Positions 10,922-59,927 of a stretch of 64,000 nt of DNA are shown here, in pieces. Made by a program: the position numbers and the translations under genes. The stretch lies in NCBI RefSeq assembly GCF_023168405.1, contig NZ_AP025285.1, positions 680,001-744,000 on the forward strand. Reading direction: 5' to 3'. Position 1 is the stretch's first letter. Each line of letters starts with the position of its first letter. The DNA comes from Leptogranulimonas caecicola. GTDB taxonomy: Bacteria > Actinomycetota > Coriobacteriia > Coriobacteriales > Atopobiaceae. The notes under the pieces are model-generated. The model was not told the origin of the DNA. It saw only the letters and a list, made by a program, of their open reading frames with translations, and ran no database searches.

Positions 10922-10966
10922 CATTTATATGTCTATGTATTGACCCCTTTGCACCCGGAGGACCTT

Positions 10967-11902
10967 ATGGACGCCCCCTATTCCATCATCGTTGACTCTC
11001 CTTGTGAGATCACCAAAGAATTCGCCGAGCAAAACGACCTTACCGTCCTGCACTTCACCTATACGGAGGCAGACAAAGAGGACGGCGGCCTCTCGGGCAC
11101 CGACAACCTCTTCAACGCCAAGACTGCCCATGAGTTCTATGACGCCATGCGTCACGGCGCCTCTCCCATGACCAGCCAGCCTTCACAGTTGGAGTTCGAG
11201 GAGTGCTTCCGCCAGGTGGCCAAGAGCGGAAAACCCGCCATTTACCTGGCCTTTGATTCCGGCATCTCCGGCTGCTACGAGGGCGCTTGTACCGCGCTGG
11301 AGCGCGTGAAGGAAGACTATCCTGGCATCCCCCTCACCATTGTGGACACCAAGCTTGCATCCACTCCTTTGAACCTGCTGGTGTACGAGGCGGTGCGCCA
11401 GCGCAACAAGGGCCTTTCGATGGAGGGCCTGGCTCAATGGGCGACCGAGGCTCACAACTTCATCCACACCCTCTTTATGGTGGATGACCTCAAGGCTTTG
11501 GCCCGTGGCGGCCGCATTCCCACCGGCATTGCCTTTGTGGGCACCAAGCTCGACATCAAGCCCATGCTCACCATTGCGCTGGACGGCAAGCTGGAGCTGG
11601 TAGGCGTGGCGCGCGGCCGCAAGAAGGGCATTCGTCGCCTGGCCGACAACTACCTCAAGAACCACGAGGAGAACACTCCGGTGTGCGCCATTGGCAATGC
11701 CGATTGCCCTGCCGACGTTCGCCGTCTGGAAGACCTGATCTCCCGCTCCGATGAGAACACTCTCTTCTTGGAGAGCTTTGCTGGCCCGACCATCGGCTGT
11801 CACGTAGGCCCGGGCTTCATGTCTTGCTGCTTCTGGGGCGCAGACAAGCGCGGCACCATGGCAGTGCCCGATAAGATCGCCAGCCAGGTGGAGCACGAGT
11901 AA
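10967..11902 (+). CDS. DegV family fatty-acid-binding protein
   Basis: This is a DegV protein of about 311 residues, which binds long-chain fatty acids and in other bacteria feeds them to fatty acid kinase FakA. It starts with YSIIVDSPCEIT, the family N-terminal motif, and carries MTSQPSQLEF and the basic GGRIPTGIAFVGTKLDIKPM region of the lipid pocket. I chose the ATG at 10967 because GGAGG lies six bases upstream; an earlier in-frame ATG at 10940 has none. It follows the ABC permease by 45 nt, so it may be cotranscribed, and it ends at a clear terminator. Confidence 0.93.
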   Translation: MDAPYSIIVDSPCEITKEFAEQNDLTVLHFTYTEADKEDGGLSGTDNLFNAKTAHEFYDAMRHGASPMTSQPSQLEFEECFRQVAKSGKPAIYLAFDSGISGCYEGACTALERVKEDYPGIPLTIVDTKLASTPLNLLVYEAVRQRNKGLSMEGLAQWATEAHNFIHTLFMVDDLKALARGGRIPTGIAFVGTKLDIKPMLTIALDGKLELVGVARGRKKGIRRLADNYLKNHEENTPVCAIGNADCPADVRRLEDLISRSDENTLFLESFAGPTIGCHVGPGFMSCCFWGADKRGTMAVPDKIASQVEHE

Positions 11903-11946
11903 CCTTAACGGAGCATGCGCCAGGCTCTTGCGCACTCAAACCCACG

Positions 11947-11990
11947 CACCCTCCTGCTTGGAAGCGTTCCAGGTAGGAGGGTGTGTTTCT
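11947..11990 (+). terminator. terminator between degV and fic, merging into a motif copy
   Basis: The perfect arms CACCCTCCT / AGGAGGGTG enclose a second stem TTGGAA/TTCCA. The trailing TGTTTCT is part of GTTTCTCGGCA at 11985-11995, a near copy of the dispersed 13-mer, so here the motif takes the place of a U-tract. Confidence 0.75.
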
Positions 11991-12035
11991 CGGCAGTTTG
12001 AGGACTCGGGGGGCTGACAGGCGCCTTCTGGGATG

Positions 12036-12794
12036 CTAGCGCACGCGGTCTTCCCAGGTGCGCAGGGTCTCCTCGCGTAGGAAGGCCTTGAAAGGCGCCA
12101 AGTCTCCGGTGGAATCAAAGGCTTCCAGGGCCTCGTAGAAGGCGGCTTGGTCGCTGGCGTAGACGCACACTGGCGGATGGCCGCCGGCCAGCAGGATGAA
12201 GTTGGCCAGGTCGCGGGCCACGCGGCCTGTTCCCTCGGAGAAGGGGTGGATGGAGACCAGCGCGTTGTGGAAGTAGGCGGCGCAGGTGAGAGCGCGCTTG
12301 GGAGTGAGATTGGGGAGCTGAGCGCACACTTCGCGGCAGAGCTCCCGGGTGAGCAGAGGGCAGTCTTCAGGGGAGGCGCCCACCTCATGGGTCTCGCGCA
12401 CGATATAGTCGCTCAATTTATATTTGCCCGGACGCTCGCCATCTGCAAGCTGAGTGGGGCTGTAGGTGCCATAGGTCAGCGTGCGATGGAGCGAGAGCAC
12501 CAGCGATTCGTCCAAGGGGCGGCAGTACGCAAGGGCGTCCAGCATCCAGAAGAAGGCCACCCGCTGGTTAGCGATAGAGATGAGGTTTCGCACGGGGCCG
12601 GTGTAGTTGGTGACGCTGGCATGCTCGAAGACCTGGCTGGCTTCTTGAAAGGTGATGTCGGCACGCTCGATCTTGGCCGATTGGTAGGCAAACTCCAGCG
12701 CGAAATCTGACAGCTCGTAGTTTTGCTCTTGATGCGAGAGCGAGGACCACCAAGACAACACGTCGTCGTAGGTAACCGGAGTCTTGCGAGCCAT
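12036..12794 (-). CDS. Fic family protein with altered GNGR motif
   Basis: This is a 252-residue Fic-domain protein; such enzymes transfer AMP or other nucleotide parts to target hydroxyls. The active-site loop reads HPFSEGTGRVAR. The catalytic histidine and both arginines are present, but the usual asparagine of GNGR is threonine, which may weaken phosphate anchoring. Upstream, SAKIER resembles the autoinhibitory S-x-x-x-E-G/N helix motif of class II Fic proteins, with Gly replaced by Arg. The start at 12794 follows GAGGAGG; the frame extends ten codons further upstream. It is monocistronic and convergent with degV. No partner antitoxin gene was seen. Confidence 0.88.
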   Translation of the reverse strand: MARKTPVTYDDVLSWWSSLSHQEQNYELSDFALEFAYQSAKIERADITFQEASQVFEHASVTNYTGPVRNLISIANQRVAFFWMLDALAYCRPLDESLVLSLHRTLTYGTYSPTQLADGERPGKYKLSDYIVRETHEVGASPEDCPLLTRELCREVCAQLPNLTPKRALTCAAYFHNALVSIHPFSEGTGRVARDLANFILLAGGHPPVCVYASDQAAFYEALEAFDSTGDLAPFKAFLREETLRTWEDRVR

Positions 12795-13042
12795 GGACAA
12801 CCTCCTCACACGGTGCTTTGACATCTATGATGACAAAACCAGGTGGGCGATGGGGCGGCAAATGGGGGAACGGGGTGCTTTCTTTACAAATGATGAGGGA
12901 GGGTCTGGAGAAACCGTGGTGAGCTCGTGGCGGCTCTAAGGAAGTTATTCAACTGCGAGGTTTGCGACCCATACTTACCTAAGGCCGCTCTTTTAGAGAG
13001 GGCACGTGAGGCAGGCAGTGGCAGAAGGAAGGATGATCGTCC

Positions 13043-45819: not shown

Positions 45820-48354
45820 ATGACGATATCAGTGAAGAAAATAAAGAAGCTCCTTTTGGGAGCCCTTTCTTTGGGAGCGGCACTGGTGCTTTTCGCTGCT
45901 CCTGTACCTGCTCTGGCAACCTGTGGCCCAGTGGCGCTGGACCCCGGCCATGGCGGCAACGACCCTGGTGCTTCATCAGGCAAATACGTTTTACTCGACA
46001 AGGAACTCGTTGAGAGCGATTTGACTTGGCAAGTTGCCCATTATTGCAAAGAGCGCTTAGATCAACTTGGAATCCCCAACTTTATCGTCAAAGAAAAGTG
46101 GGAATCACTTTCACGCATTCAGCGTTGGCAGCGGGCCAAGGCAAAAGATGCGCGTGTACTTATCTCCTTTCATATGAATGCTGCTGACGGCATTCCTTCA
46201 GCCAATGGTTCCGAGGTGCTCTGTTGCAACTTCTCTACGTGGAACCAGTTCACCAACCGCGAGAGCCGCGCCTTTGGCTCGGACCTGCTCAAGCGCTTTC
46301 AGGAGATGGGCTTTTACAATCGCGGCAACAAGTTCAACACGGGCACCGGCACTTACCCCGACGGCTCTGCGGCAGACTCCATGGGCATCAACTATTACCC
46401 GCGCCTGGACGGTACTACTGGCCTTATCATTGAGCACGGGTTTTTAACCAACCAGCATGATGCCGGGCTTCTGAATAACCCAGAGGTGCTCAAGCAGATG
46501 GGTTATGCAGACGCCGAGGCCATCGCAAAGCAGTGGCCCAACAGCTATGTGAAGCCTGCCGCCTCGGTGCGTCCCAGCAGGGCCCACTGGGCCCAAGACG
46601 CCAAGGGTTGGAAGTACATCCTCTCTGACGGCTCGGCTGCCACCAGCTGCTGGCAAAAGATCAATGGTAAGTGGTATCGCTTTGGCGCGGACGGTTACAT
46701 GCTCTCCGGCGAGATCGCGCTGGGCGGCGCTCACTATTTACTGGGTGGCCCGAGCGACGGCGCCATGGTTACTGGCTGGGTCTGGCGAAACGGCGCCTGG
46801 TATTACTACGGCGGTCCTGACGACGGCGCCATGAAGACTGGCTGGGCCTATGAAGGCGGCTGGTATTACCTGGGCAATGACGGCCGTATGCGCACCGGTT
46901 GGGTGCGGGTGGACTCCGTCTGGTACTGGCTCAACGGCTCTGGCCGCATGGCTACCGGCTGGCTCAGCCTGGGCGGCACCTGGTACTGGCTGGATCTCAA
47001 TAGCGGCGCGATGGCTGAGAACGGTACTGCGGTATGCCACGGCGTACGTTCGCTCTTCAATGGCTCGGGCGCATGGATCTCTGGCTCTGGCTGGCGTCAG
47101 CTGGGCGATCGCTGGTTCTATCTCTCTGGCGATCGCGTGGCTACCGGCTGGCTCAACCTGGGTGGCGCCTGGTACTGGCTGGCTGGCGACGGCGCTATGG
47201 CTACCGGCTGGACTGCGGTTGGCGGTAGCTGGTATTACCTAGGCAGCCAGGGCGACGGCGCCATGAAGACCGGCTGGATCTGGGTGGACAACAAGTGGTA
47301 CTACTGCAACGGCTCCGGCGCCATGCTCACCGGTTGGCAGTGGATCGGCAATGCCTGGTATCTCCTGGGTTCCGACGGCGCCATGCTCACTGGCTGGCAG
47401 CGCATCGACAACAAGACCTACTACCTCGATGGCTCTGGAGCCATGCTCACCGGAAAGCAGACCATCGACGGTAAGAACTACGAGTTCAACAGCTCCGGCG
47501 TGCTCCTGAACGACCCCAATCAGCGGATAGGTTGGTTCAAAGAGCCCAATGGCCAGTGGCGTTACTACGATTCCAAGGGGAACATGCTCACCGGCTGGCA
47601 AACCATCAACGGCGCTCGCTACTATCTGGGCACTAACGGCATCATGGTCACTGGCCGCCAGACCATCGACGGAGCCGCCTATGTGTTTGACAATGACGGC
47701 AAGGCCATCAATGGCTGGTACAACGCCTCTTTGCAACCTTCCAACTCCTCAGTCTCTGGCTCGAAGGTCCATTACTATGAGGGCGGCAAGGAGACCTACA
47801 CCCGTCCCGGCAATACCCCGGTCATGGGCGCGTCTGCGATGAGCAAGGATGCCTTTGTGAAGGCCTTCGCTGCAAAGATCCAGGCTAACTACCCGCAGAT
47901 CTACCGCAATGATGCCAAATACGGGGCACAGACTCCCGAGGCCTTTGCCCAGGCAACTTGGGACGCAGCCGAGAAGGAAGGCGTGCGCCCCGAGGTGCTC
48001 GCAGCTCAGGTTGGCAATGAGACCGGTTGGCTCAAGTTTGGCGGCATCGTCAATGCGAATCAGTGCAACTTTGGCGGTCTTGGCGCCCTGGATGGCAATG
48101 CCAACGGCAATGCTCCCACCTTCGCCAACGTGCAAGAAGGCCTCTTGGCCCAAGCGCAGCATCTCAAGGCCTACTCTTCCAAAGAGGCGCTTGCCCAGCC
48201 CTGCGTGGATCCTCGATTCCACGTCATCGCAAACCGCGGCATCGCACCCTACCTGGAGGATTACGGCGCCGACGGCCATGGCGGGCTGGTATGGGCGAGC
48301 AATCGTCTCTATGGGCGCGATCTGCTGGCAGCCATGAAGGCTATCACCGGCTAA
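45820..48354 (+). CDS. bifunctional autolysin: amidase_3 + cell-wall repeats + glucosaminidase
   Basis: The 844-residue secreted protein has a signal peptide (1-33) and then an N-acetylmuramoyl-L-alanine amidase_3 domain (about 34-240). The zinc ligands lie in DPGHGGNDPG, KELVESD and SFHMNA, and the catalytic Glu in LIIEHGFLTN. About 17 aromatic repeats follow (roughly 252-645) of the type GWLNLGGAWYWLAGDGAMAT, like choline-binding repeats. After a linker comes a glucosaminidase domain (about 669-844), with LAAQVGNETGW holding the likely catalytic Glu. One protein can thus cut both the stem peptide amide and the glycan chain, combining what LytA and LytB do in pneumococcus. It is divergent from PBP1A. 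Confidence 0.92.
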   Translation: MTISVKKIKKLLLGALSLGAALVLFAAPVPALATCGPVALDPGHGGNDPGASSGKYVLLDKELVESDLTWQVAHYCKERLDQLGIPNFIVKEKWESLSRIQRWQRAKAKDARVLISFHMNAADGIPSANGSEVLCCNFSTWNQFTNRESRAFGSDLLKRFQEMGFYNRGNKFNTGTGTYPDGSAADSMGINYYPRLDGTTGLIIEHGFLTNQHDAGLLNNPEVLKQMGYADAEAIAKQWPNSYVKPAASVRPSRAHWAQDAKGWKYILSDGSAATSCWQKINGKWYRFGADGYMLSGEIALGGAHYLLGGPSDGAMVTGWVWRNGAWYYYGGPDDGAMKTGWAYEGGWYYLGNDGRMRTGWVRVDSVWYWLNGSGRMATGWLSLGGTWYWLDLNSGAMAENGTAVCHGVRSLFNGSGAWISGSGWRQLGDRWFYLSGDRVATGWLNLGGAWYWLAGDGAMATGWTAVGGSWYYLGSQGDGAMKTGWIWVDNKWYYCNGSGAMLTGWQWIGNAWYLLGSDGAMLTGWQRIDNKTYYLDGSGAMLTGKQTIDGKNYEFNSSGVLLNDPNQRIGWFKEPNGQWRYYDSKGNMLTGWQTINGARYYLGTNGIMVTGRQTIDGAAYVFDNDGKAINGWYNASLQPSNSSVSGSKVHYYEGGKETYTRPGNTPVMGASAMSKDAFVKAFAAKIQANYPQIYRNDAKYGAQTPEAFAQATWDAAEKEGVRPEVLAAQVGNETGWLKFGGIVNANQCNFGGLGALDGNANGNAPTFANVQEGLLAQAQHLKAYSSKEALAQPCVDPRFHVIANRGIAPYLEDYGADGHGGLVWASNRLYGRDLLAAMKAITG

Positions 48355-52851: not shown

Positions 52852-54255
52852 GTGCTCTCACGCACCGATCCCAAGCGCGCACCGTTGTCGGTGAAGCGCA
52901 ATATGGTGTGGAACAGCGTTGGCTCCTTTGGCAACCTGCTCTGTGCCTGGCTCATCACGGTGTTCGTGATGCGGCTTTCGGCTACCTACGACGCTCCAGG
53001 CGTCTATTCTTACGTGGTGTCTGTCTATGCGATCTTCTCGTCTTTGGTGGACTACCGCCTCTACATGTATCAAATTGGCGATCTTCACGGCGAGAACAGC
53101 CTGGGCGAGTATTTTGCGCTGCGACTCATCACCTCGGGGATCGCTCTGGTGCTCATCGCCGTTTACTCGCTGGCTACCAGCGCCCCAGACCTTTTGATCC
53201 CCATCGTTTTCTATTCGCTCTACAAGATCGCGGGCACCATCCTAGATTGTTTTCACGCCTTGGAGCAGCGAGAAAAGCGCATGGACTACATTGGCATCTC
53301 CTACGCCATCCAAGGCGTGGTGTCGCTGGCGGCCTTTGTGGCGGTCTTTGCTGCTACCCAAAACCTCTCGCTTACCCTGTTCGCCATGTTTGTGGTCACG
53401 GTAATAGTGGGCATCGTCTACGACTTGCCTCGAGTGCGCTACTTCGAGGAGTTCAAACCTCGTATTAGCACCGCTAAAGCCAGAGAGCTTCTGGTGCGTT
53501 GCGCCCCGGCGGTGTTGGCGTTTATGGCTATCTCGGGTGCCACCTCGATCCCTCGCCAGTACCTCATGAACGCTCAAGGTGAAGCTGCGCTTGGCGTGTA
53601 TGGAACCATGGTAGCACCGGTGGCTATCGTGCAAACCGGTGCAGGCTTTGTGTACAACCCGCTTCTGACCTACTTCAAAGAGATCTATGAGCGTCGCGAT
53701 CGCCGCTCCTTTATAAAGCTCATGGGACTCACCCTGGCAGCCATCGTGGTCATTGGCATCCTATGCCTCATTGGCGTGCAGCTTTTGGGCGCGTTTCTCT
53801 ACGGGCTCATCTATGGCGATCGCATTTTGGAATACCTCTATCTGCTGCCGCCTATGGTAATCGCTGCGTTGGCCATTGCCTATATGGGCTTTCTCAACAG
53901 CCTTGAAACTGTGTTCTACGATTTCAAGTCCACCTTTGTGGGCGGCGTGGTGGCTCTGGCAGCGGCTCTGGTCACCATGGTGCCCCTGGTGAACGTCTTT
54001 GGGCTCAATGGCGTCACCTACTGTTCCATCATCTCATCGCTGGCTTCTACCTTAGTGATGCTGGGTTTCTTAGCCCACGAGCTCAAAGGGCACTTTGCCT
54101 CCGACGACAGCCTGACTCACTTGGAGGCGGCCCTTTCAGAGGCGCCGTCAGAGCCAGAGGCTCCTTTGCACCCCAAGGATTGCAGCTCCAAGGAGGATTG
54201 CGGCTCCAAAGCAGTCAAATACTCCAAAGAGTGCGAAGAGCCTATTGAGAGGTAG
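52852..54255 (+). CDS. Wzx-like polysaccharide/teichoic acid flippase
   Basis: This is a 467-residue protein of the MOP superfamily (Polysacc_synt type) with about twelve membrane helices, starting at GTG with GAGGAGG upstream. It would move lipid-linked glycan units across the membrane. In pneumococcus the flippase of the same superfamily, TacF, moves phosphocholine-loaded teichoic acid units. Given the Pce-like esterase 1 kb downstream, a similar cargo is possible but not shown. The last 45 residues form a charged Ser/Glu/Lys/Cys-rich tail, unusual for the family. No glycosyltransferase is adjacent. Confidence 0.87.
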   Translation: MLSRTDPKRAPLSVKRNMVWNSVGSFGNLLCAWLITVFVMRLSATYDAPGVYSYVVSVYAIFSSLVDYRLYMYQIGDLHGENSLGEYFALRLITSGIALVLIAVYSLATSAPDLLIPIVFYSLYKIAGTILDCFHALEQREKRMDYIGISYAIQGVVSLAAFVAVFAATQNLSLTLFAMFVVTVIVGIVYDLPRVRYFEEFKPRISTAKARELLVRCAPAVLAFMAISGATSIPRQYLMNAQGEAALGVYGTMVAPVAIVQTGAGFVYNPLLTYFKEIYERRDRRSFIKLMGLTLAAIVVIGILCLIGVQLLGAFLYGLIYGDRILEYLYLLPPMVIAALAIAYMGFLNSLETVFYDFKSTFVGGVVALAAALVTMVPLVNVFGLNGVTYCSIISSLASTLVMLGFLAHELKGHFASDDSLTHLEAALSEAPSEPEAPLHPKDCSSKEDCGSKAVKYSKECEEPIER

Positions 54256-55147: not shown

Positions 55148-55218
55148 GGTTTACAGGAAACCATTACACGATTACCAAGGTAAACCCTGGGTGCCCCAGG
55201 TGTGAAGGAGTTTGAAAG

Positions 55219-57534
55219 ATGATGTGCTCTGCCCGCAAGCGCGTTCTGGTGGCATTGGCGGTGGCGTGGGGGCTTTGCTGCTGTCTTGCTGTGCCGTCTC
55301 GAGTGTGGGCAGCTCCAGCCGTCACGTCGCCTGTCAACTCCACGGCGCGAGTCCACGTGCTCTCCTTTGGCTTCACCGACGCCATCTTGCTGGAGAGCGA
55401 CGGTCGCTTTGGTCTGGTGGATGCCGGAGAGGACAACGACTACCCGTCTGGCGCAGATCCTCGCTATCCGTTGCGCGAGGGCATCACCCGTGGGGGAGGG
55501 GTAACCGACAAGCTCTTTGCCTACATGAAGGCCATGGGTGTCACCAGCGAGAACTTCGAGTTCCTTGTGTGCACCCACCCCCACAGCGACCACATTGGCG
55601 GCGCCGACGAGGTTATCGAGGAGTTCAAGCCTCAGCGCGTCTACCTCATGCCCTATAAAGATTCCTATATCTTAGAGCCCTCCCGCCTCTGGGACAACCA
55701 GTATGTCTACGACCGCACGGTAGCCGCAGCGCTGGCAAATGGCGCCACGCTCATCCAGGGCTTCGACACCTCTGCCCCCGTGGATCCCGGCCGTCTGGAA
55801 GAGGCTCCAGAAGATCCCGCTCCCACTGATCCCGTGGATCCTCAGGACCCTGCAGATCCCGAGAAACCCGCACAACCCGATACCACGGACCCTTCTCAGC
55901 AGCCCACCGATACCCCAGAGTCCCCTGTAGCTTCTGAGCCTTCTGCTACCGAGAAGAGCGTCTCCGCTCCTGTAGCGGGCGATCCTGTGGCGTTGGACGC
56001 CCAAGAGATGGTAGAGGCCGTGGCTCCTCAGGCGGCTCCGGAGACCGTGCAAGAAGACGAGGCGGCAGGCGCCTCCAAGCCTCAGGTCATTTCCCCCGCC
56101 CCGGAAGGCGCGAAGGGATCCTATGTGGGCAATCCCCAGTTCAAGCTGGGCTCTATGGATGTCTCTATTTATAATTACGATACTGACTACTTCACCCATC
56201 CTAAGTACGATGCCAATGAGTTCTCGCTGGGCGTCTTGGTCGAGGCCAACTCCCATAAGGCCTTTTTGGCAGGAGACATTGGAAACCTGGATGGCGATGA
56301 GGACCGCTTGGCCAAAGAGCTGAGCAAGGTAGACTTGCTCAAGCTGGGACATCATGGTCTGGAGGGCTCTAACTCCCGCCGCTACCTCAACTCCCTGTCG
56401 CCTCGCACTCTGGTGATGACCTCGGAGCTCTCTTCTGGGGTGCCGTCTCAAGATGTGCTGGACTACACCAAAGACTCCGAGGCGCGACTCATCGATGCGG
56501 TGCATCAGGCAGAGCTCAACCGAGCTGCCACAGTGGTGGATTTCTCCTACGGCAAGATATCCTACAACGTTCCCGAGACCGGGGAAGTCCGCTATCTCTG
56601 GCGCGAGAACTCCCCGCACTATATACGCTTTGAGGACGGCTACCTCAAAAAAGCCACCGAGTGGAATCAGGCTCGCTGGGGCGATTGGTATCACTTCAAC
56701 CGCTCTCCCTACGCCCAGGAAGGCACTTGGTATCGCGAAGGAACTTACTTTTTCTACCTTATGCCTGACGGCGCCATGGCCAAGGACGGCGTGGTGATCG
56801 TGGAGGGCAAGACCTATCTCTTTGATGACGAGGGTCATATGATGAGCCTGCCTCAAGGATGGTCCTTTGTAGAGGGAGCCTGGCGCTATGGCATGAGCGA
56901 CGGCACGGTGAAAACCGGCTGGCTCAACGAGCATGGCACCTGGTACTACTTGGATCCCAAAACCTGCGCTATGGCCCAGGGGTGGGAACAGGTGAACGGT
57001 ACCTGGTATTATCTTGCCCCCGGCTCTGGTGCCATGAGGACCGGATGGCTTGACCTGGGAGGTACCTGGTATTACCTGCAAGGCTCCGGCGCCATGGCCC
57101 AAGGCTGGCTTTTCGATCGGGGAAGCTGGTACTATCTCGCTCCCGGCTCAGGCGCCATGGCTCGTGGTTGGGCGCAGGCAGACAACGCGTGGTACTACCT
57201 CTCTGGATCAGGCGCCATGGTCACCGGGTGGCTCAACCTTGGAGGCACCTGGTACTACCTCGCTCCTGGATCGGGAGCCATGGTCACCGGGTGGCTCAAC
57301 CTTGGAGGCACCTGGTATTACCTCACAAGTTCCGGCGCCATGGCTCGTGGTTGGGTGCAGGTGGACAACACGTGGTATTACCTTCGCGGATCAGGCGCCA
57401 TGGCCACTGGCTGGATCCAGCTGGGTGCAACCTGGTACTATCTCGCCCCCGAATCAGGTGCCATGGTCACAGGCAGCCATGTTATCGACGGCACCCAGTA
57501 CAGTTTTAACGGTTCTGGGGCGTGGGTGGCCTAA
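55219..57534 (+). CDS. secreted Pce/CbpE-like phosphocholine esterase homologue with cell-wall repeats
   Basis: The 771-residue exported protein has a signal peptide (about 1-31) and a metallo-beta-lactamase-fold domain (about 38-470). It then carries about 13 aromatic cell-wall repeats (480-771) ending GSGAWVA. Metal ligands are H120, H122, D124, H125 (HPHSDH), D353 (AGDI) and H378/H379. By memory it aligns closely with pneumococcal Pce (CbpE), which removes phosphocholine from teichoic acid: DAILLESDGRFGLVDAGED, the PRYPLREGI stretch and SRLWDNQYVYD all have direct counterparts. A Pro/Glu/Thr/Ala-rich insert of about 117 residues (185-301) interrupts the catalytic domain, which I do not know from Pce. 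The exact substrate is inferred. Confidence 0.88.
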   Translation: MMCSARKRVLVALAVAWGLCCCLAVPSRVWAAPAVTSPVNSTARVHVLSFGFTDAILLESDGRFGLVDAGEDNDYPSGADPRYPLREGITRGGGVTDKLFAYMKAMGVTSENFEFLVCTHPHSDHIGGADEVIEEFKPQRVYLMPYKDSYILEPSRLWDNQYVYDRTVAAALANGATLIQGFDTSAPVDPGRLEEAPEDPAPTDPVDPQDPADPEKPAQPDTTDPSQQPTDTPESPVASEPSATEKSVSAPVAGDPVALDAQEMVEAVAPQAAPETVQEDEAAGASKPQVISPAPEGAKGSYVGNPQFKLGSMDVSIYNYDTDYFTHPKYDANEFSLGVLVEANSHKAFLAGDIGNLDGDEDRLAKELSKVDLLKLGHHGLEGSNSRRYLNSLSPRTLVMTSELSSGVPSQDVLDYTKDSEARLIDAVHQAELNRAATVVDFSYGKISYNVPETGEVRYLWRENSPHYIRFEDGYLKKATEWNQARWGDWYHFNRSPYAQEGTWYREGTYFFYLMPDGAMAKDGVVIVEGKTYLFDDEGHMMSLPQGWSFVEGAWRYGMSDGTVKTGWLNEHGTWYYLDPKTCAMAQGWEQVNGTWYYLAPGSGAMRTGWLDLGGTWYYLQGSGAMAQGWLFDRGSWYYLAPGSGAMARGWAQADNAWYYLSGSGAMVTGWLNLGGTWYYLAPGSGAMVTGWLNLGGTWYYLTSSGAMARGWVQVDNTWYYLRGSGAMATGWIQLGATWYYLAPESGAMVTGSHVIDGTQYSFNGSGAWVA
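57214..57317 (+). repeat. recent 63-nt tandem duplication in the cell-wall repeat region
   Basis: The 41 nt from 57214 recur without a change from 57277, exactly 63 nt (21 codons) later. Other units in this gene are related but less alike. This points to a recent unit duplication and probable copy-number variation between strains. Confidence 0.85.
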
Positions 57535-57646: not shown

Positions 57647-58615
57647 ATGCTAAACGAGATCTACCACTCCTTAGACCCGGTGGCCTTCACCATCGGCCCT
57701 CTGGCCGTGCGCTGGTATGGACTGGCTTACTTGGCCGCATTCCTGCTAGGAGGCCTCCTGGTGGGCAAGATCTCCCGCCACTGGAAGCTGGGTTTGTCGG
57801 CAGACGACATCATGACAGTGGTGGTAGGCATCGCTTTAGGAGCGGTCATTGGCGGAAGGCTTGGCTATTGCCTCTTCTATGGCGACGGCTACTACCTGGC
57901 CCACCCTCTAAAGATCTTGGCCACCTATGAGGGCGGCATGAGCTTTCATGGGGGCTTGGTGGGCGCTATTATCGGCGGCTGCATTGCAGCGAGGCCAGTG
58001 CATGTGTCGGCGTTGACCTTCTGCGATCTGGGCGTCATCGTGACCCCCATCGGCCTCTTCTTTGGCCGTTTGGCCAACTTTGTGAACGGCGAGCTCTGGG
58101 GAAAGCCCACCGATCTTCCCTGGGGCGTGGTCTTCGAAGCCGGCGGAGCGGCCCGCCACCCCTCCCAGCTCTACGAGGCGCTCCTCGAGGGCGTGGTGAT
58201 GTTCGTGATCCTCTACAGCCTGTCGCGCAAGCTGCCGCCTAGGCCTCAGGGCACCTTCACAGGCCTGTTCTTGCTTCTCTACGGCGTCTTTCGCATCCTC
58301 ATCGAGTTTGTGCGCGTCCCCGACGCCCAGCTGGGCTACCTCTTTGGTCCCATCACCATGGGCCAGGTGCTCTCGCTGCCTCTGGTGATCATCGGCGCCC
58401 TTATCCTCTATTGGGCTCACAAAACCCAGCGCCCTCAGATTGGCCACACCTATATGGTGACTGCCGGGGTGGACCGGGAGCTGCCTCACGAGCCCGCCGA
58501 CGACATCGATGTGCCTCCGGTAGCAGGCCCCGCTTCTCGTCCAGAGGATTCTCCCAAGGCTCCAGATGCCTCCGCTGCCGAGAAACCCTCCCATCGCCGT
58601 CAGGGGCAACCCTAA
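57647..58615 (+). CDS. lgt: prolipoprotein diacylglyceryl transferase
   Basis: This is a 322-residue membrane enzyme that adds diacylglycerol to lipobox cysteines. GMSFHGGLVGAIIGG and GRLANFVNGELWGKPTDLPW form the signature, and RHPSQLYEA is conserved. About seven helices are followed by a polar Pro/Ala/Glu tail of about 55 residues. The start at 57647 follows AATAAGGAGC. It would process the tannase-like and beta-helix lipoproteins of this window. One exact copy of the dispersed 13-mer falls inside the tail coding sequence, encoding A-E-K-P. Confidence 0.96.
   Translation: MLNEIYHSLDPVAFTIGPLAVRWYGLAYLAAFLLGGLLVGKISRHWKLGLSADDIMTVVVGIALGAVIGGRLGYCLFYGDGYYLAHPLKILATYEGGMSFHGGLVGAIIGGCIAARPVHVSALTFCDLGVIVTPIGLFFGRLANFVNGELWGKPTDLPWGVVFEAGGAARHPSQLYEALLEGVVMFVILYSLSRKLPPRPQGTFTGLFLLLYGVFRILIEFVRVPDAQLGYLFGPITMGQVLSLPLVIIGALILYWAHKTQRPQIGHTYMVTAGVDRELPHEPADDIDVPPVAGPASRPEDSPKAPDASAAEKPSHRRQGQP
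58576..58588 (-). repeat. dispersed 13-mer copy, exact, in the lgt 3' end
   Basis: TGCCGAGAAACCC, the reverse complement of the motif, lies 28-40 nt before the lgt stop codon, in the disordered tail where codon choice is free. Confidence 0.7.
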
Positions 58616-58719
58616 GGGCTGCGAGCATCACGCATATCGATGTCCCTTGCTGTCTGGGGATATTGCGTGGCGGGCAACAGATGCCAAGGTGGAGGGTACA
58701 GGTGACTCTGTAACAGAGC

Positions 58720-58756
58720 GGGCTGTTCTGCTGCGCGCAGGGCGGCCCTCTTTTTT
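58720..58756 (+). terminator. terminator-like hairpin directly before the pilin-domain gene
   Basis: GGGCTG pairs with CGGCCC around an inner CTGCGCGCAG palindrome and is followed by TCTTTTTT. The ribosome site AGGAGG begins one base after the T-run. Just upstream, CTCTGT-A-ACAGAG (58706-58718) is a further palindrome. The position suits either the end of the lgt transcript or an attenuator of the next gene. Confidence 0.65.
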
Positions 58757-58766
58757 AGGAGGCGCC

Positions 58767-59927
58767 ATGCACCATCGAGGTATCTGTCATAAGAGTCTGG
58801 GAGCAGCAGGGCTTTTACTGGTGGCAATGGCGGTGGTTCTCGGCTTGGGGCTCATGCCTGTCAAGGCGACAGCCCAGCAAGCCTCTGACCAAGCCATAGC
58901 AGAGACCTCGCAAGCTCAGGATCGCCTGATGACGGCAGCCCCGGTAAATCCGCTGGATTGTTTCGATGTGACGGCCACGGTTTCTCTTTCGGGCGGCTCT
59001 TTAGAGGCAGGGGAGTTCACCTTCAGGCTCACAGACTCTACCGGATCGGCGATGCAGGTTGCCAACCAGCACAGCGATCTCACTGGCCAAAATAATTATG
59101 TGAATTTTGAGATCCCTTATGGGCAGGTGGGCACGCGCACCTATAGGCTTGCCCAAGAGAACAACCCTCGCTATCGCTGCGATGCCACGGTGTACGAGGT
59201 CACGGTCACTGTGACCCAGGATATGCTGGGCAACAAAGGCGCCAGCGTGACCTATAGCACGGGCGGCAAGACCGTGTCTCAGGCTGCTTTTTCCAACGGC
59301 CCGCTGCCTCCTCCTTCGGGCCAGTGGGTTCATGAGGATGGCGTCACTCGGTATCGCACCCCTCAGGGTGCCTATGCATCTGGTTGGTGCACCATTGACG
59401 GCCAGACCTATTACTTTGATACTTCGGGCGACCATGGGCGCAGGACAGGCTGGTTGCAGCAGGCCGGCACTTGGTACTTCTTGAGCCCTGCAGACGGTCA
59501 TAGGGAGACCGGCTGGATTAAAGAGGGCGGCGCCTGGTATTACCTCAACCCTTCCACCGGCGCCATGGCCACCGGTTGGGCGTGGGTCAACGGCGCGTGG
59601 TACTACCTCAAAGGCTCGGGCGCCATGGCTGCCGGTTGGGTATTCACGGGCAGCCAGTGGTACTTCCTGCGCTCTACGGGAGCCATGGCCACAGGTTGGA
59701 TTTGGACAGGTGGCGCCTGGTATTATCTGGCGCCTGGAGACGGCCATATGTATCGGGGATGGGGCTTCATCAATGGCAGCTGGTACTTTTGCGATCGCTC
59801 CAGCGGCGCCATGAAGACCGGCTGGATTTGGGACGGGGCCTGGTATTACCTCTACAGCTCCGGCGCCATGGCTCATAACACCACTATTGGAGGCTATAGG
59901 CTCGATTCCAGCGGAGCCTGGGTCTAA
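58767..59927 (+). CDS. FctA/Spy0128-type pilin domain protein with cell-wall repeats
   Basis: The 386-residue exported protein has a signal peptide (about 1-37) and a pilin/FctA beta-sandwich domain (about 64-178: FDVTATVSLSGG, GEFTFRLTDSTG, VYEVTVTV). About nine aromatic cell-wall repeats follow, ending LDSSGAWV. In FctA domains a Lys in the first strand forms an isopeptide bond with an Asn near the end, helped by a Glu. Here the Lys position is V72 while E131 and N177 appear kept, so the bond is probably absent. There is no LPxTG signal; attachment would be through the repeats. The start at 58767 follows TAGGAGG. It is likely a surface adhesin or spacer protein. Confidence 0.8.
   Translation: MHHRGICHKSLGAAGLLLVAMAVVLGLGLMPVKATAQQASDQAIAETSQAQDRLMTAAPVNPLDCFDVTATVSLSGGSLEAGEFTFRLTDSTGSAMQVANQHSDLTGQNNYVNFEIPYGQVGTRTYRLAQENNPRYRCDATVYEVTVTVTQDMLGNKGASVTYSTGGKTVSQAAFSNGPLPPPSGQWVHEDGVTRYRTPQGAYASGWCTIDGQTYYFDTSGDHGRRTGWLQQAGTWYFLSPADGHRETGWIKEGGAWYYLNPSTGAMATGWAWVNGAWYYLKGSGAMAAGWVFTGSQWYFLRSTGAMATGWIWTGGAWYYLAPGDGHMYRGWGFINGSWYFCDRSSGAMKTGWIWDGAWYYLYSSGAMAHNTTIGGYRLDSSGAWV

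Follow-up and report, generated by a model that had tools for sequence, protein, structure and literature searches.

The question raised by this locus is whether an actinobacterium encodes a phosphocholine esterase of the kind known from the pneumococcus. Pneumococcal Pce works at the cell surface and is linked to colonisation and to recognition by the immune system; surface phosphocholine is recognised by C-reactive protein and by natural antibodies. The original prediction placed a Pce-like esterase in the window, by which we mean the whole stretch of 64,000 nucleotides that was analysed, located at 680-744 kb in the one-contig genome (2.0 Mb, 99% complete) of an actinobacterium related to Olsenella.

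The gene and its product

An open reading frame was confirmed at positions 55219-57534 of the window, on the forward strand as are all the features described in this section, and it encodes a protein of 771 aa from an ATG start; a ribosome-binding site (AAGGAG, 55205-55210) can be read from the sequence 8 bases before the ATG. According to phmmer and Pfam, this pce-like gene specifies a predicted secreted MBL-fold hydrolase with choline-binding repeats. The protein would start with a signal peptide (aa 1-31, 55219-55311), recognised by its basic start, hydrophobic core, and AxA-like site, and likely cut between VWA and AP.

The MBL catalytic domain comes in two halves. The first (aa 43-188, 55345-55782), delimited by HMM alignment and by conservation against 81 relatives, contains the metal motif THPHSDH (55573-55593) and the Pce-specific loops DYPSGADPRYPLREGI and YKDS...RLWDNQYVYD, the latter including the RLWDN block (55684-55698) that is conserved in Pce-type sequences. 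It is followed by a Pro/Ala/Glu-rich insertion of 110 aa (aa 190-299, 55786-56115), predicted to be disordered from the alignment with 2BIB, the pLDDT, and the composition. The second half (aa 300-457, 56116-56589) carries the AGDI and GHHG motifs. The C-terminal choline-binding module (56857-57531) consists of ten units of the GWxxxxGxWYYL type and a last one that ends in SGAWV, as shown by the repeat listing and by Pfam, where Choline_bind_3 (4e-48) and Choline_bind_1 (3e-44) are far above cut-off and Lactamase_B reaches 3e-9; TRF calls a tandem repeat inside this module at 57190-57444. The predicted order of an MBL domain and then the repeats is borne out.

The sequence blocks on which the prediction was based, DAILLES, VDAGEDNDYPSGADPRYPLREGI, and SRLWDN, are all present, as is the C-terminal SGAWVA. 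They are not a chance resemblance, since a phmmer search with the first 494 residues against all PDB sequences finds the Pce/CbpE entries 12QJ, 1WRA, and 2BIB on top, with E-values between 6e-52 and 6e-51. Behind them, a lactamase-domain protein and ComEC appear from E 0.003, with the ComEC entries at 0.0096-0.015, and the NCBIfam model ComEC_Rec2 scores 57.6 bits, far below its cut-off of 190 bits.

Predicted fold and conserved positions

An AlphaFold model, built with nine coriobacterial homologues, has a confident core with pLDDT mostly between 75 and 96, while pLDDT falls below 50 in a disordered stretch (model residues 151-258). Foldseek ranks 1WRA and 2BIB first (about 5e-27), with ComEC 9IC4 at 2e-11. 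The VIA-align comparison also puts these two Pce entries first, with 2BIB (Z 37.7) and 1WRA (Z 37.6) aligned over 286-287 residues at 37% identity, and ComEC next with Z 25.8 and 22% identity. The claim that the protein is closer to Pce than to ComEC-type MBL proteins therefore holds both in sequence (E of about 1e-51 against about 0.01) and in structure (Z 37.7 against 25.8).

All six metal ligands of Pce are kept. Residues H120, H122, D124, H125, D353, and H379 correspond in the alignment to Pce H85, H87, D89, H90, D203, and H229, with Pce residues counted along the 2BIB alignment; D353 lies in AGDI and H379 in GHHG. His87, Asp203, and His229 of 2BIB have been named as metal ligands (PMC2916828), and the other three were taken from the conserved HxHxDH motif. 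Furthermore, 36 positions are at least 93% conserved in an alignment of 81 Pce-type sequences, and at every one of them the window protein carries the residue typical of the family. These include positions mostly missing from eight ComEC-type or related rows, among them E24, P41, Y48, P49, R51, Y111, D113, W123, D124, and N125 in Pce numbering. In the RLWDN block, the tryptophan is found in 80 of the 81 sequences and the aspartate and asparagine in every one, and the block is mostly absent from the ComEC-type outgroup.

The insertion, which the original prediction did not mention, interrupts the catalytic domain near Pce residues 146-150 and is absent from 2BIB. Insertions of varied length occur at this same point in other members of the family, and three loci from Lachnospiraceae, Eubacterium, and Clostridia (L060, L058, and L106) carry a Cna_B domain at the equivalent place. 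The 110-aa insertion could alter the access to the active site. Another domain variant is found in Paraeggerthella, whose Pce carries an extra C-terminal glucosaminidase domain (L023:196-2835 and L048:2068-4707), which would join an esterase and a putative murein hydrolase in one protein. In two streptococcal loci (L107 and L109), the pce frame is split into two ORFs, by either an interrupted gene or a sequencing error.

Phylogenetic position and distribution

In a careful tree of 65 rows, all 58 Pce-type rows, the streptococcal ones included, are split by a 100/100 branch from an outgroup of seven ComEC-type and related MBL rows, and a quick tree of 89 rows likewise places the Pce-type rows on one side of a branch and the ComEC-type ones on the other, with support of 99. 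The outgroup branches are long, and the Pce clade is thus shown without a settled root. The phylogenetic check proposed with the original prediction places the window protein within the Pce clade and apart from the ComEC-type proteins with the full 100/100 support. A Pce-type protein is found outside the streptococci, as predicted. The window protein groups with that of Olsenella sp. KGMB02461 (Atopobiaceae; 94% identical), which likewise keeps the metal ligands and the conserved positions, and with a further member of its family (G022).

The streptococcal Pce proteins form one tight group inside the Pce clade, and a recent transfer from streptococci was discarded because the window protein clusters with its own class, away from them. 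A mobile origin was also set aside: no Pce match was found in the phage and plasmid collections, only two weak matches (L129 and L130, 32-33% identity) lie on contigs classed as viral, and the GC content of the gene (59.7%) equals that of the window (59.4%).

The Pce-type family is common: of 464 stretches picked out of public genomes by pattern matching, 420 proved to be relatives. Its members are spread widely through Coriobacteriia, Lachnospiraceae, and Actinomycetaceae. This wide distribution and the variable insertion within the catalytic domain are the new details added here. At the same time, the presence of Pce outside the streptococci is less remarkable than it may seem, given this spread and the earlier prediction for Gemella (PMC7136413).

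The phosphocholine pathway of the host

Homologues of LicA, LicB, LicC, and LicD are all encoded in the host genome. The region at 291-298 kb contains two LicC-LicA fusions, an EamA transporter, and a LicD protein (2e-35), followed by a glycosyltransferase and then a CDP-glycerol-transferase-like protein. The EamA transporter is the LicB homologue, its sole PDB match being pneumococcal LicB (7B0K, 1.3e-29). The second fusion has its best matches in pneumococcal LicC (1JYK, 9e-37) and the choline kinase 4R77 (1.5e-22), and matches PntC at only 8e-11. The residues D105 and D192 of pneumococcal LicC have been reported to face the amine (PMC6697681), and the host's own LicC domain aligns a Ser and a Glu at these positions. 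Thus, the specificity for phosphocholine would come from LicB and the choline kinase fused to LicC, and not from those residues. No PEP mutase was found in the one-contig, 99%-complete genome.

In locus L002, two neighbouring LicC-LicA fusions flank a third cytidylyltransferase-like gene, and one of the fusions (10954-12846) has an N-terminal match to a winged-helix DNA-binding domain. In locus L003, a gene cut off by the locus edge (1-2070) fuses a YidC-type insertase domain to a CDP-glycerol glycerophosphotransferase domain, and adjoins an LtaS-like sulfatase.

Linkage between pce and lic genes

The pce-like gene is about 437 kb away from the lic genes of its own genome, and the evidence for linkage comes from its relatives. 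Of 60 relatives from the same order, eight carry a Pce-type gene (E <1e-40). Three of these eight carry pce next to lic genes: between LicCA and LicD in G018, after LicD in G037, and adjoining LicCA in G053. With a chance of about 2% per gene, the binomial probability of this adjacency is about 4e-4, a rough bound in which each lic match counts as one 20-kb target and both matches and genome sizes were summed by hand. A strong LicCA match is present in seven of the eight, the eighth (G010) being a 57%-complete bin; since LicCA is often present in relatives that lack Pce as well, finding the two in one genome carries little weight by itself, and their adjacency counts for more.

A survey of 80 named public loci, with a lic homologue defined by E <1e-10 within 10 kb, gave 7 of 19 loci in Coriobacteriia, 16 of 30 in Clostridia, 15 of 19 in Streptococcus, and the single unclassified one; outside Streptococcus, this amounts to 24 of 61 Pce loci. 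The contigs being short, these counts are lower bounds. None of the 11 loci labelled Actinomycetes has a lic homologue within 10 kb, among them loci of Actinomyces, Schaalia, and Pauljensenia (L067, L069, L091, L092, L095, L096, and L099-L101).

Other choline-binding proteins and neighbours

Choline repeats have 51 matches in about nine genes of the genome, most of which also encode cell-wall enzyme or surface domains. The partner domains recognised by Pfam in the genes scanned are amidase plus glucosaminidase-like, NlpC/P60, L,D-transpeptidase, transglutaminase-like, C69 peptidase, and FctA, and one of the scanned proteins has no other domain match. Two of these genes share the window and the forward strand with the pce-like gene. 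The product of the reading frame at 45820-48354 combines an N-terminal Amidase_3 domain with about ten choline-binding repeats and, at the C terminus, a glucosaminidase-like domain that scores 29.4 bits in Pfam, just below the cut-off of 30.2; it looks like a bifunctional choline-binding autolysin, predicted to be secreted. The other (58608-59927) encodes a surface protein with an FctA isopeptide domain and repeats, matched by Pfam, and sits one gene downstream of the pce-like gene, after an lgt-like gene. The multi-pass membrane protein encoded nearby at 52852-54255 appears flippase-like by eye; searches of Pfam, PDB, and PHROGs gave no notable match, and a TacF-type identity is unsupported.

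Proposed function and alternative readings

On the computed homology, fold, metal ligands, repeats, lic gene set, and linkage in relatives, we consider it very probable that the product of the gene is a teichoic-acid-type phosphocholine esterase, of the same kind as pneumococcal Pce, and that it trims the cell's own surface polymer. We infer its secretion, catalysis, substrate, and physiological role as follows. The signal peptide would export the protein, and the choline-binding repeats would grip phosphocholine, holding the enzyme on the surface of its own cell. There, the two-metal MBL site would hydrolyse phosphocholine off accessible, probably terminal, residues of the anchoring polymer. 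The phosphocholine would be put in place by the Lic proteins, with LicB for uptake, LicA as the kinase, LicC as the cytidylyltransferase, and LicD for the transfer; their genes lie elsewhere in the genome. The outcome would be an adjustable density of surface phosphocholine and, with it, an adjustable binding of choline-binding proteins, including the autolysin of the window. In the pneumococcus, Pce releases about 20% of the phosphocholine residues (PMC4929436).

Other readings of the gene differ mainly in the substrate or in whether the activity is kept. An active Pce could have host or dietary phosphocholine compounds as its main target, such as platelet-activating factor, which Pce has been reported to hydrolyse (PMC5137146), with the product feeding choline to LicB, whose homologue would serve as the importer. 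We regard this as unlikely, because the repeats would anchor the enzyme to the cell's own wall, and because the genes linked to pce in the relatives, LicD and LicCA, encode incorporation enzymes; such a target would, in any case, be compatible with action on the own surface. The removal of phosphoethanolamine or aminoethylphosphonate, amine groups related to phosphocholine, from the surface polymer would find some backing in the Ser and Glu at both amine-facing positions of LicC, and in the phosphonate pathways with LicC-like PntC enzymes of Olsenella uli and Atopobium rimae (PMC6697681). This is improbable in a genome whose LicC domains are fused to choline-kinase domains, whose LicB matches only its pneumococcal counterpart in the PDB, and which has choline-binding repeats in the window protein and about eight others; an aminoethylphosphonate decoration, in particular, is hard to expect without a PEP mutase match.

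The long insertion that splits the catalytic domain, along with the adhesin-type Cna_B domain at the equivalent point in the relatives from Lachnospiraceae, might instead suggest a degenerate protein with a structural, adhesin role, where the MBL fold is kept and the activity lost. However, every metal ligand and all the family-wide conserved positions are intact, in the 94%-identical Olsenella relative too, making such a loss very improbable. Finally, a ComEC-type or generic secreted MBL nuclease or hydrolase joined to choline-binding repeats would explain the common superfamily and the sub-threshold ComEC_Rec2 match, but the fold score, the sequence score, the Pce-specific loops, and the tree all place the protein with Pce, and a distinct ComEC-like gene is present at 915 kb of the genome, so that we give this reading hardly any credence.

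Beyond this gene, we put forward, as a tentative proposal that we hold to be possible rather than probable, that phosphocholine decoration and its trimming by Pce are an old surface-remodelling system shared by Actinomycetota and Lachnospiraceae of the gut and mouth, with the pneumococcus as only one of its users, and that a loop of the catalytic domain has become an insertion site for host-facing modules, a disordered linker in Olsenella and Cna_B in Lachnospiraceae. If commensal Coriobacteriia and Lachnospiraceae do make and trim phosphocholine, surface phosphocholine would be a common and adjustable feature of gut bacteria instead of a streptococcal speciality, and the commensals would offer many natural Pce variants for enzyme study.

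Comparison with known systems

No report of Pce in Actinomycetota was found in the literature searched, whose coverage was partial. The resemblance of Erysipelothrix SpaA to Pce, which was derived from a threaded model with 17.6% identity (PMC7083082), was set aside as a precedent. A precedent lies in Gemella, for which phosphocholine esterases have been predicted and which has genes for phosphocholine incorporation (PMC7136413). Both Gemella and our host lie outside Streptococcus and combine the MBL fold with choline-binding repeats; however, Gemella, likened here by its published description, belongs to the Bacilli, near the streptococci, whereas our host is an actinobacterium.

The C-terminal MBL domain of ComEC (9IC4) has the same fold and is the next-best structural match, but at the low identity given above it lacks the Pce-specific loops, stands in a membrane-protein context, and falls in a separate clade. 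With regard to the pneumococcal Lic pathway, all four kinds of protein are present in the host, although its LicC and LicA are fused, twice, and LicD adjoins on the opposite strand. The closest system is Pce/CbpE/LytD of Streptococcus pneumoniae (2BIB, 1WRA, and 12QJ), which shares with the window protein the signal peptide, the two-metal MBL site, the Pce-only loops, and the repeats. Contrary to the pneumococcal enzyme, the window protein has a disordered insertion in its catalytic domain and about 11 repeat units without the 85-aa C-terminal tail that follows them in Pce, and its gene is located away from lic.
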